From: an uncultured Nitrospira sp.
GTDB taxonomy: Bacteria; Nitrospirota; Nitrospiria; Nitrospirales; Nitrospiraceae
Direction of reading: 5' to 3'
DNA length: 64,000 nt
Assembly: GCA_902500995.1 (NCBI GenBank)
Contig: CABVSR010000017.1
Coordinates: 1 to 64,000 of the forward strand
Below, piece by piece: positions 31,533 to 63,968 of the stretch. The notes below the pieces were generated by a model. That model ran no database searches and was not told the origin of the DNA. It worked only from the letters and a program-made list of their open reading frames with translations. Made by a program: the position numbers and the translations under genes. The stretch's first letter is position 1, and each line of letters begins with the position of its first letter.

Positions 31533-32531
31533 TTGAATGGAACAGACGTGATGTATCCGTCAGACCGACATTCAATCGAACGACTGCTCAAGGCGCGGAT
31601 AGGGCGACGCGCGGCCCTCGCGCTGGGTGCGCGCGCCGCCTCGCTGTTGGCGACCACCATGGGGCTGGGGGCGGCGGCGGGCCTGTTGCAATCCCTCGGG
31701 GGCTGCCAGCGGGCGCCCGGCACGGCGCGCGACCAGTTCATCTACATTTCGGAAGAAAAAGAAATTGCGATGGGTCTCTCGGCCTTCCGGGAAGTGCTCC
31801 GGCAGGCCCCCTTGAGCGACAATCCGGAGCTCAACGAAATGGTGCATCGCGTGGGCAATCGCATCGCCAAAGCGGCCAACAAACCGGAATACCAATGGGA
31901 GTTTGCCGTCATTCAGGATGATCGCACCATCAACGCCTTCGCGCTGCCCGGCGGCAAGGTGGCGGTGTTCACCGGGATTTTGAAAGTCACGAAAACGGAA
32001 GACGGATTGGCGACCGTCATGGGCCATGAAGTCGCGCATGCCCTGCAGCGCCACGGGGCGGAACGGATGAGTCGCAGCGTGCTCGAACAAATCGGACAAC
32101 TGGCGGCCCTGGGCGCCGGCGCGGCCGCGGGTCGCCCGGATGCGGCGATGGCGGCCATGACCGTCTACGGGGTCGGCGTGTCGTTGCCCTTCGACCGCCG
32201 GCAGGAATCGGAAGCGGATTTTATCGGACTGCGCTTGATGGCGGAGGCCGGGTACGACCCCCGCGAAGCGGTCGCGTTCTGGGAACGGATGAGCGGCTGC
32301 CCGCGCGCCATGATCAATAAACTGTGTTTCCGTTCGCAGCAGGCGATTCCGGAATTTCTTTCGACGCATCCGTCCGATGTCACCCGCATCAATCAGATCG
32401 AGGCCTGGATCCCCGATGCCATGAAACACTATCATCCCGCAGGAAAGGCGCCGGCGATCCCGTCCGGTCCGATCCAACCCTACCGGCCGCCGGTGGGGCC
32501 CATGCCCGAGGCGCCTCTGCCGACCGGCTAA
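31533..32531 (+). CDS. M48-family zinc metalloprotease, secreted
   Basis: A 332-residue protein. The N-terminus has a GRRAAL motif, a hydrophobic stretch and LGGC, so export by a lipobox or Tat-like signal is plausible. The catalytic zinc motif is [14 protein letters not shown], with the third ligand in [15 protein letters not shown]. It resembles BepA/LoiP/YcaL-type periplasmic proteases that act in outer-membrane protein quality control. A TTG (31533), GTG (31548) or ATG (31551) start is possible; ATG seems best. It sits between sppA and carB. Confidence 0.88.
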
Positions 32532-45350: not shown

Positions 45351-47754
<2,404 letters not shown>

Positions 47755-47757
47755 CGA

Positions 47758-47877
47758 GGGATGCTGAAACTGCCTTTCAGCGGCGTTCTCGACTCGACAC
47801 AATCCTCGACGTAGCTCCGCTACGCCTGCGGCTCTGTCTCGTCTGCGGCCTTGCTGAAAGATCAGTTTGAGCATCCC
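47758..47877. repeat. 120-bp inverted-repeat element, copy 1 (after pyrG)
   Basis: The ends form an imperfect inverted repeat of about 24 bp (GGGATGCT...AGCATCCC). GCGTTCTCG is at 47783-47791 and CTGCGGCCTTGCTGA at 47843-47857, with a central hairpin CGTAGC/GCTACG. Both blocks and the total length recur in copy 2 at 62256-62375. It fills the gap between pyrG and kdsA. Confidence 0.85.
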
Positions 47878-47901
47878 CTGGCTTGAAACTCATGGAAACG
47901 T

Positions 47902-48723
47902 ATGGCGTACGAAGTGGATTTGGGACAGTTCAAGGTCGGGGCGGGGCATAAGCCGTTTTTGATCGCCGGGCCCTGTGTGATCGAAAGCGAGCAGCTTGCC
48001 ATGGACACGGCGGGACGCATCGCGGAGATCACCCAGGCACTCGGTATGCCGTACGTGTTTAAATCCTCCTTCGATAAGGCCAATCGCACCTCCATCACGT
48101 CGTTTCGGGGACCGGGACTGGAGAAGGGACTTGCGGTGCTGGCCGCCATCAAGCAGCAGATCGGCGTCCCGGTGCTCACGGACGTCCATTCGGAAGAGCA
48201 GGCCACGGAGGCCGGCCGCGTGGTTGACATTCTGCAGATTCCTGCCTTCCTCTGCCGCCAGACGGATCTCTTGATCGCTGCCGCGAAGACCGGCAAGGTC
48301 GTCAATATCAAGAAAGGACAGTTTTTGTCCCCGCCGGAAATGGGCCATGCCGTCAAGAAAGTGGAAGAGGCCGGCAACCGCCGTATTGTCCTGACGGAAC
48401 GAGGCTCCTCGTTCGGCTACAACAATCTGGTCGTCGACATGCGGGCGTTTCCGATTCTGCGCCGCTTCGGCTATCCGGTGGTCTTCGACGCCACGCACAG
48501 TGTGCAGCTTCCCGGCGGAGGCGGCACGAAATCCAGCGGCCAGCGTGAATTCGTCGAACCCTTGGCTTGTGCGGCGGCAGCAGCCGGCTGCGACGGGTTT
48601 TTCATGGAAGTCCACCCTGATCCGGACTCCGCGTTATCCGATGGACCGAACATGGTTCCGCTTCATGCGCTTCAATCACTGCTCGAACGGGTATTACGGA
48701 TATGCGACGCAGCCGCACGATAA
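47902..48723 (+). CDS. kdsA: 3-deoxy-8-phosphooctulonate synthase
   Basis: A 273-residue aldolase condensing PEP and arabinose 5-phosphate to Kdo 8-phosphate. The barrel signatures are [36 protein letters not shown] and [11 protein letters not shown]. The cysteine in AGPCVIES is the metal ligand of the metal-dependent class (Aquifex type), whereas the E. coli enzyme has asparagine there. It is upstream of kdsD, which makes its substrate. Confidence 0.96.
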
Positions 48724-62184: not shown

Positions 62185-62255
62185 AGCTCAACCTTTACAT
62201 CAGGTACACAAACGGAATGATCCGACCACAGACATCGCAATAATGTTGCGACGGA

Positions 62256-62375
62256 GGCGACTCAAAATGGTCACTCAGCAAGGCCGCAGAGAGACCAGAC
62301 GTCGAGGCGTACCCGCTGGGTACGTTGAGACGAATGGACGAACGAGAACGCAGCTGATGGCCATTTTCAGTCGCC
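62256..62375. repeat. 120-bp inverted-repeat element, copy 2 (after purH)
   Basis: The ends form an imperfect inverted repeat of about 23 bp (GGCGACT...AGTCGCC). Read on the minus strand it contains GCGTTCTCG and CTGCGGCCTTGCTGA, as in copy 1. The central hairpin is CGTACCC/GGGTACG where copy 1 has CGTAGC/GCTACG. It begins 2 bp after the purH stop. Confidence 0.85.
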
Positions 62376-62377
62376 GA

Positions 62378-63931
62378 TCAGTGGCGGAAGTGTCGCATCC
62401 CCGTGAGAATCATCGCCATCCCATGTTCATCCACAGCCTTGGTCACTTCGGGGTCGCGGATGGATCCACCAGGCTGAATGACACAGGTAATGCCCGCCTC
62501 TGCCGCCGCATCGATGCCGTCGCGGAACGGAAAGAACGCGTCGGACGCCATCACGCAGCCCTTCACGGACGATTGAGCCTTCATGGCGGCCAGTTTCACC
62601 GAATCCACGCGGCTCATTTGGCCCGCCCCAATGCCCACGATCTCACCCGGCCGGCCGTAAATGATGGCATTCGACTTCACATGCTTACAGACCATCCAGG
62701 CAAAGGCGCAGGCGGCATATTCTTGCTCGGTCGGCTTGCGCGAGGTCGGCACCGCCAGGGACTTGATGTCCTTGATGACGCCCAAATCACGGTCTTGCAC
62801 GATCAGTCCACCGACCAGCTTTTTGAGATCATACCCTTCGGCCGTCGCTTTGCTGAGCGGGCCGACATCCAGCAGCCGGAGGTCCTTCTTCCGCTTGAGT
62901 TCGGCCAAGGCTTCCTCGGTAAATGCCGGCGCGATGACCACTTCCACGAAGGTCGAGGTGATTTCTTTCGCCGCGGCCAGATCCACCGGGCGGTTGAACG
63001 CAAGGACACCGCCGAATGCCGACACGGGATCGGTTGCGCGCGCTTTGACATAGGCCTCGACCGGCGTGGCGCCGAGCGCGCAGCCGCAGGGATTGTTGTG
63101 CTTGATGATCGCCACGGCCGTCTCGTCGAATTCCTTCACGAGCTCGAGCGCCGAATTGGCATCCAGGAAATTATTGTAGGACATGGCTTTGCCATGCAGG
63201 ATCTTGCCGCGCGACACCGCCGGCTCCTTGGCGTGCAATTCACGGTAGAAGGCGCCCTGCTGGTGCGGATTCTCTCCGTAGCGCAGCGTCTCCACCCGCT
63301 CGAACTGCAACGAGAGCATGGCGGGAAACTTCACCTCACTCCCCTGCACCTGCTTTTCGAGGTACCCGGCGATCAAACTGTCATACCGCGCCGTGTGTTG
63401 AAATACCTTCATCGCCAGTTCGCGCCGTAGAGCCGGCGTGACGGATCCGGCCTTCACCGCGTCCAGCACACGGGCATAGTCCACCGGATCGACCACGACG
63501 AGCACATCCTCGTGGTTCTTCGCGGCGGAGCGCAACATCGACGGCCCGCCGATATCGATGTTCTCGATGGCCTCTTCAAATGGGCAATGAGGTTTGGCGA
63601 TGGTCGCTTCGAAGGGGTACAGATTCACCACGACCACGTCGATGTTGCCGATGCCGTGTTGCTGCATCTGCTTGACGTGATCGGGCACACCCCGGCGCCC
63701 CAATAACCCGCCGTGAATTTTCGGGTGCAAGGTCTTCACGCGACCGTCAAGAATCTCCGGCGATCCCGTGTAGGCAGCCACATCCGTCACCGCCAGGCCC
63801 GCGTCACGCAAGGCCTTGGCCGTACCGCCGGTGGATAATATTTCCGCGCCGAGGGCCGCCAATCCCTTGGCCATCTCGACAACTCCGGTCTTGTCAGAAA
63901 CACTGATCAGTGCCCGCGCAATGCTGGCCAT
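62378..63931 (-). CDS. purH: Bifunctional AICAR formyltransferase/IMP cyclohydrolase
   Basis: A 517-residue enzyme of the last two steps to IMP. The N-terminal MGS-like cyclohydrolase domain has [20 protein letters not shown] and [18 protein letters not shown]. The transformylase domain has [26 protein letters not shown] and [21 protein letters not shown] 63931 has AAGGAG upstream. purD follows on the same strand. Confidence 0.97.
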
Positions 63932-63968
63932 GATGAACTCCTTCAACTATGGATATCGTGTGGGTGGG

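Follow-up and report, generated by a model that had tools for sequence, protein, structure and literature searches.

MITEPsy1 of Pseudomonas syringae pv. phaseolicola is a 100-nt non-coding MITE attributed to the IS5-family insertion sequence ISPsy2. It has been shown to transpose in vivo, duplicates 4 nt (CTAG or YTAA) and carries a terminal repeat with ...TCTGAAAAAGCC (PMC3189936), and the target motif of IS5 has itself been reported as YTAR (PMC10359306). The ERIC (enterobacterial RU-1, 127 bp) and NEMIS/Correia repeats are intergenic palindromes viewed as MITEs (PMC2759123, PMC2229807). GTAG-tagged REPs are palindromic as well, lie 3' of genes and have termini that often supply the TAG stop codon (PMC3733652).

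In the window, meaning here the whole stretch of 64,000 nucleotides analysed from contig CABVSR010000017.1 of an uncultured Nitrospira sp., a sequence-only reading had reported 120-bp palindromes after pyrG and purH, with two blocks in common, a central hairpin whose arms differ between the copies yet pair, a position 2-3 bp past a stop codon and the same orientation relative to the upstream gene. The analysis confirmed this description, the blocks CTGCGGCCTTGCTGA and GCGTTCTCG being exact matches, and NCBIfam matches bore out the gene names pyrG, kdsA and purH. The features are as follows.

46153-47754, plus strand: pyrG (CTP synthase), open reading frame coordinates; TIGR00337 PyrG, 839.5 bits
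47758-47877, element orientation minus, right end facing pyrG: hairpin core of copy 1; R1 covariance model, 111.3 bits
47758-47772 and 47863-47877: outer arms of copy 1
47766: unpaired outer-stem base of copy 1, opposite 47869 (a G-G mismatch when read along the pyrG strand, C-C along that of the element)
47783-47791, plus strand: conserved unpaired block GCGTTCTCG of copy 1 (CGAGAACGC on the element strand)
47843-47857, plus strand: conserved block CTGCGGCCTTGCTGA of copy 1 (TCAGCAAGGCCGCAG on the element strand)
47902-48723, plus strand: kdsA (3-deoxy-8-phosphooctulonate synthase), the gene after copy 1; TIGR01362, 400.8 bits
62256-62375, element orientation plus, right end facing purH: hairpin core of copy 2; R1 covariance model, 113.6 bits
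62275-62289, plus strand: conserved block TCAGCAAGGCCGCAG of copy 2 (reverse complement CTGCGGCCTTGCTGA)
62343-62351, plus strand: conserved block CGAGAACGC of copy 2 (reverse complement GCGTTCTCG)
62378-63946, minus strand: purH, with its stop codon at 62378-62380 (plus-strand TCA); TIGR00355, 687.3 bits

Copy 1 lies 3 bp downstream of the pyrG stop codon TAA (47752-47754) and the right end of copy 2 is 2 bp away from the purH stop, with covariance-model matches spanning 47752-47885 and 62247-62382, respectively. Each copy forms an imperfect hairpin in which the unpaired blocks and a mismatch of the outer stem are conserved, and alignment of the copies revealed that the mismatched position (47766 in copy 1) is unpaired in nearly all of them. 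Compared with dinucleotide shuffles, nearly all of which folded less well, the folds of the two strands had z scores of -5.2 and -6.8 for copy 1 and of -4.0 and -5.5 for copy 2. Neither window copy showed a recognisable left arm or target duplication, and, from the homology of their core and right end, they are best read as old, core-only members of the element family described below. No Rfam match above the gathering score was present in the window. The next-best covariance hit in the window, at 31692-31819 on the minus strand, was weak (20.9 bits) and may be a decayed copy or a chance match.

The window genome (3.97 Mb, 56 contigs) was searched with a covariance model derived from 20 copies, opposite-strand matches of the same palindrome being dropped, and the search revealed about 99 copies at E <1e-5, a figure that may be a lower bound since only 150 candidates were scored. 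Matches were obtained in 60 of the 61 genomes searched and in all 19 of the 19 genera of the Nitrospira order. The surroundings of the copies were examined on 60 genome stretches covering them, and no recurrent mobile gene or transposase adjoined the copies of the window genome. Several same-orientation clusters occur in this genome, including those on C34 and C4; at C34:2267-6256, a stretch of 4 kb contains six copies that all point the same way, and three of these form a tandem array with a period of 131 bp. In G014, many copies with identical top scores are found on separate contigs, probably as the result of a recent burst, and the matching transposase is degraded.

Complete copies elsewhere in the genome measure about 196-201 bp, so that the 120 bp given by the sequence-only reading as the element length holds for the core but not for the whole. 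They consist of a left terminal repeat, a left arm of about 75 bp, which in many copies starts with TAGCAGGCTGCGGAAAAACTCGATTATTGCG or variants, and an imperfect hairpin core of about 124 bp, and carry no transposase gene. The terminal repeat is CAGG[C/A]TG[C/T][G/T]GAAAAA, a second one forming the right end of the core, and its near-matches numbered 80 in the window genome versus 2 for a reversed control. Words of 4 bp conforming to YTAR adjoin the terminal repeats. Of the 33 copies in which a left repeat could be recognised, 12 had identical 4-mers at the two ends (permutation mean 5.0, P 6e-5), and among the 15 copies with YTAR on both sides, 12 had the same word (P 0.002), namely CTAG/CTAG in seven and the less common TTAG/TTAG in three and CTAA/CTAA in two; YTAR was found at the core-left end in 0 of the 64 core-only copies. 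Shorter and longer forms were also observed. A short-core version of 78 bp in L247 (320-500; N. defluvii 3579069-3579146) has the inner motifs of the other copies and perfect terminal repeats, and the core at C14:20849 of the window genome has 79 bp. A longer block inside the central hairpin, CCCTTCTTACCCGCCCACCCCGAGC... in several copies and perhaps a second repeat sitting within the loop, is found at C1:40580, C16:57892, C10:9943 and C30:16928 of the window genome and in L245.

For the sites C1:301163 and C35:17979, the two flanks were linked through a single target word and used to search 29 genomes of the genus Nitrospira for empty counterparts; in many congeners the linked flanks aligned without a gap along all 524 bp, with a single CTAG, CTAA or TTAG. 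The first site is occupied in G022, G018, G005 and G026, where the two halves of the query overlap by 3-4 bp, as target duplication predicts. At this site, one CTAG provides the stop codon of both convergent genes, and after insertion each gene has its own stop. The stretches L283 and L284 (G006 and G008) carry CTAGCCTAGG where other relatives have the single CTAG, possibly an excision footprint made up of the duplicated target plus one base.

A candidate parent was found in Candidatus Nitrospira defluvii (G024), in which a 1316-bp insertion sequence (IS) with perfect terminal repeats is bounded by the same word, TTAG-CAGGCTGCGGAAAAAC...GTTTTTCCGCAGCCTG-TTAG. It encodes a 342-aa frame matching NF033581 (IS5 family) with 278.9 bits, the cut-off being 140, as well as PF05598 and PF01609. 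In L244 (854-1948), an in-frame TGA separates an upstream ATG from the open 342-aa frame, which suggests that this N. defluvii copy may be without its normal transposase start. Relatives of the transposase were found in 16 of the 61 genomes, and the ISs with both ends readable have CAGnnTG-type repeats, most of them with identical YTAR-type duplications: CTAG in L252, L253, L256, L259, L260 and L267, CTAA in L272, ATAG in L258 and TTAG in L261 of the window genome itself, with unequal flanks in L271 (CTAA/CTAG) and L263 (CTAG/CTGG). Five further copies, from related genomes, have CTAG duplications and matching ends of the AAAAA or TTG type. The sole related transposase of the window genome, on C45, is 42% identical and has another terminal repeat (CAGTGTGTTGACAAAC), and the sequence common to MITE and IS is confined to the end of about 16 bp, the interior of the MITE being unrelated to the IS. 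An IS701-type parent, considered because that type targets YTAR, was rejected, as PF13546 is not present in the genome. Because the CAGGCTGCGGAAAAAC terminal repeat and the YTAR duplication are common to the element and the IS5-family IS, and in line with the YTAR target of IS5 (PMC10359306) and the CTAG or YTAA duplications of MITEPsy1 (PMC3189936), we classify the element as an IS5-type MITE, which an IS5 transposase would presumably move in trans. The terminal repeats, the co-varying 4-bp duplications, the exact empty sites and the matching IS5-family IS together give good support to the earlier suggestion of a mobile palindrome directed at the ends of genes.

None of the 97 copies with gene context checked lies inside a predicted gene; the genes were called with a simple, purpose-built codon-usage caller, and distances to gene starts are therefore approximate. 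Since TAG or TAA preceded by C or T is a YTAR word, stop codons can be targets, and nine of the 12 clean duplications include the stop codon of a neighbouring gene, compared to a background of 22% (P 1e-4), calculated as stops among the non-coding or stop-codon YTAR sites of the same stretches. This excess is the combined effect of target choice and survival, and an insertion at a gene end alters no protein because the duplication restores the stop. Regarding spacer types, 24 elements are in convergent and three in divergent spacers, where the background of 490 spacers has 72 convergent and 68 divergent. Among the core-only copies, the right end abuts a stop in 36 cases and a stop is found at left-arm distance in three (P 4e-8), while long copies have stops at the right end in 15 and at the left end in eight cases (P 0.21). 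Neither the random placement and orientation nor the absence of covariation that would speak against the sequence-only reading was observed.

The pyrG-kdsA site was followed through the genus on a kdsA tree, in which the nearest rows to the window kdsA are Nitrospira defluvii and its relatives. An element is present between the two genes in most Nitrospira lineages and was lost several times, after which 9-12 bp separate pyrG and kdsA (empty sites in L178, L184, L185, L190, L194, L203 and others), and the element of L175/L180, in the long form, appears to have re-inserted within a clade otherwise lacking it. In L161, a 21-bp perfect palindrome, GCAGGATGTTGAACATCCTGC, stands before kdsA straight after the pyrG TGA, and the first 16 bases of GCAGGATGTTGAACATCCTGC plus TA occur at C2:106197 and C26:52548 of the window genome; the palindrome reads as a minimal, repeat-to-repeat remnant of the element. 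Seventeen orthologous pyrG copies have another pyrG ortholog as their best match (87-96%, against 70-78% for other copies of the window genome), and the pyrG copy of L164 is closer to another subfamily. Changes on both sides of a pair were observed in 14 of 40 pairs for the 17 orthologs without L164 (58 cells versus 19.7 in shuffles) and in 15 of 40 with L164 included (63 versus 22.2), with no slid version coming near; as the shuffles ignore relatedness, this covariation is support and not proof. The pattern indicates that the pyrG hairpin has been passed down through the genus, with changes in one arm compensated in the other, and kept after insertion; in part it could stem from gene conversion or from replacement, given that the copy of L164 belongs to another subfamily.

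The whole of these data is best explained, with a probability of roughly 0.87, by an IS5-type MITE whose YTAR duplication restores stop codons, whose left arm decays and whose stop-abutting hairpins are kept. The MITE, presumably mobilised in trans by an IS5 transposase, inserts at YTAR (CTAG, CTAA, TTAG) and duplicates those 4 bp, a step that can be followed in the sequences. With a YTAR stop as target, the duplication returns the stop and leaves the gene unharmed, including a convergent pair with one CTAG. After insertion the left arm would decay, and copies with the hairpin directly at the stop would be retained, the hairpin presumably acting, or at least being accepted, as a structure of the mRNA 3' end. 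The sequence-only reading had also offered an RNA 3'-end element, and this is indirectly supported by the compensatory changes at pyrG and the core-only orientation bias, but not by an intrinsic-terminator signature: a consensus scan for loops of 3-8 found no such site in 47600-48050, long-loop forms being outside the scan, and the T run of the pyrG copy is TTT only. An initial count of 48 G-U versus 7 A-C cells, which seemed to favour a strand-specific RNA structure, used pairs predicted from one strand; with pairs predicted from both strands, the cells were 13 versus 5 at the pyrG orthologs (P 0.09) and 30 versus 27 genome-wide, and no strand preference could be demonstrated. The likeliest present role of the hairpin may be that of a 3'-end mRNA structure (protection, processing or assistance to termination), an assignment we hold tentatively, at somewhat less than even odds.

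Alternatively, the element could be primarily a host RNA element, a hairpin transcribed at the 3' end (as terminator, RNase-processing or mRNA-stabilising structure) which spread and was retained for its function at gene ends and for which mobility is secondary. The paired changes in 14-15 of the 40 pyrG pairs, the 36 versus 3 orientation bias, the excess in convergent spacers and the near-absence from divergent ones would all fit, and this explanation is possible, if somewhat less likely than not: exact empty sites with target duplications are the mark of transposition, the pyrG copy has disappeared from several Nitrospira species, leaving 9-12 bp, no intrinsic-terminator-like site was found at the pyrG copy, and the two-strand counts just given lend it no clear support. 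The paired changes could also have arisen without selection, by replacement or gene conversion from copies that already paired, as the subfamily of the L164 copy and the apparent re-insertion in L175/L180 might suggest; this is unlikely, given that the other 17 orthologs match one another best and the signal persists when L164 is left out. A REP/BIME-type element, mobilised by a transposase of the Y1 (RAYT) type that recognises single-strand hairpins with conserved mismatches, would account for the imperfect palindrome, the conserved C-C mismatch and bulge, the intergenic location and the TAG beside the end, and a supply of stop codons has been reported for GTAG REPs too (PMC3733652). Such an origin is highly improbable, however, as IS200/RAYT-type transposition makes no target duplication like the 4-bp one found here, and the unit is 5-10 times the length of a REP (a core of about 124 bp and a unit of about 200 bp versus 20-40 bp); the PF01797 transposase, detected in control genomes, had no match in the window genome. 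Still more improbable is an integron-like attC recombination site travelling with gene cassettes, which the imperfect palindrome of the 60-140 bp class, its position straight after stops and the same-orientation clusters on C34 and C4 recall, but the adjoining genes are core genes with no recurrent mobile gene beside the copies. Integron cassettes were rejected because relatives without the element keep both genes at the empty sites; since the gene stays, it is the element that moves.

Returning to the IS5-type MITE, its stop-restoring duplication of 4 bp explains harmless residence at gene ends, even for convergent genes with one common CTAG. A broader proposal, advanced with some reserve as it seems rather less probable than its opposite, is that a stop-targeting transposon delivers gene-end hairpins throughout the order, and that many of these, retained in the orientation that is of use, shed the transposon arm and turn into 3'-end structures of the mRNA that are then maintained; if so, a mobile element would supply the genome with gene-end signals. 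The family is large and apparently undescribed, occurs in Nitrospira (nitrite oxidisers and comammox, for which genetics is hard) and is tied to a named transposase type, and it provides a testable case of transposon-derived hairpins turning into maintained 3'-end structures. At pyrG-kdsA, gain, loss and re-insertion occur naturally at a single site.

Compared to known systems, GTAG-tagged REPs are 20-40 bp long, RAYT-associated and without such a target duplication, whereas the Nitrospira element has no RAYT. The ERIC and NEMIS/Correia repeats are like the element in being imperfect palindromes of about 100-150 bp predicted to fold in transcripts. Their target is reported to be TA-type, unlike the YTAR of the element, and we know of no reuse of stop codons by either. 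IS5-family ISs of the NF033581 type share the CAGGCTGCGGAAAAAC repeat and the YTAR duplication with the element, which differs in being without a transposase. MITEPsy1 is, like the Nitrospira element, short, non-coding, IS5-family-linked and flanked by a 4-nt target duplication; the part of its description available gives six copies in one strain, genes interrupted too, and reports neither a stop-codon bias nor a conserved hairpin core, while the Nitrospira element has about 99 copies, is order-wide and gene-end biased and possesses a structured, conserved core. The literature searched, which covers few subscription journals, contained no prior description of the element family. The IS5-type MITE mechanism is thus already known as a type, and what appears new, as far as searched, is the family itself, its distribution throughout the order, the way in which a stop codon doubles as the insertion target and the long-term maintenance of the hairpin at a gene end.
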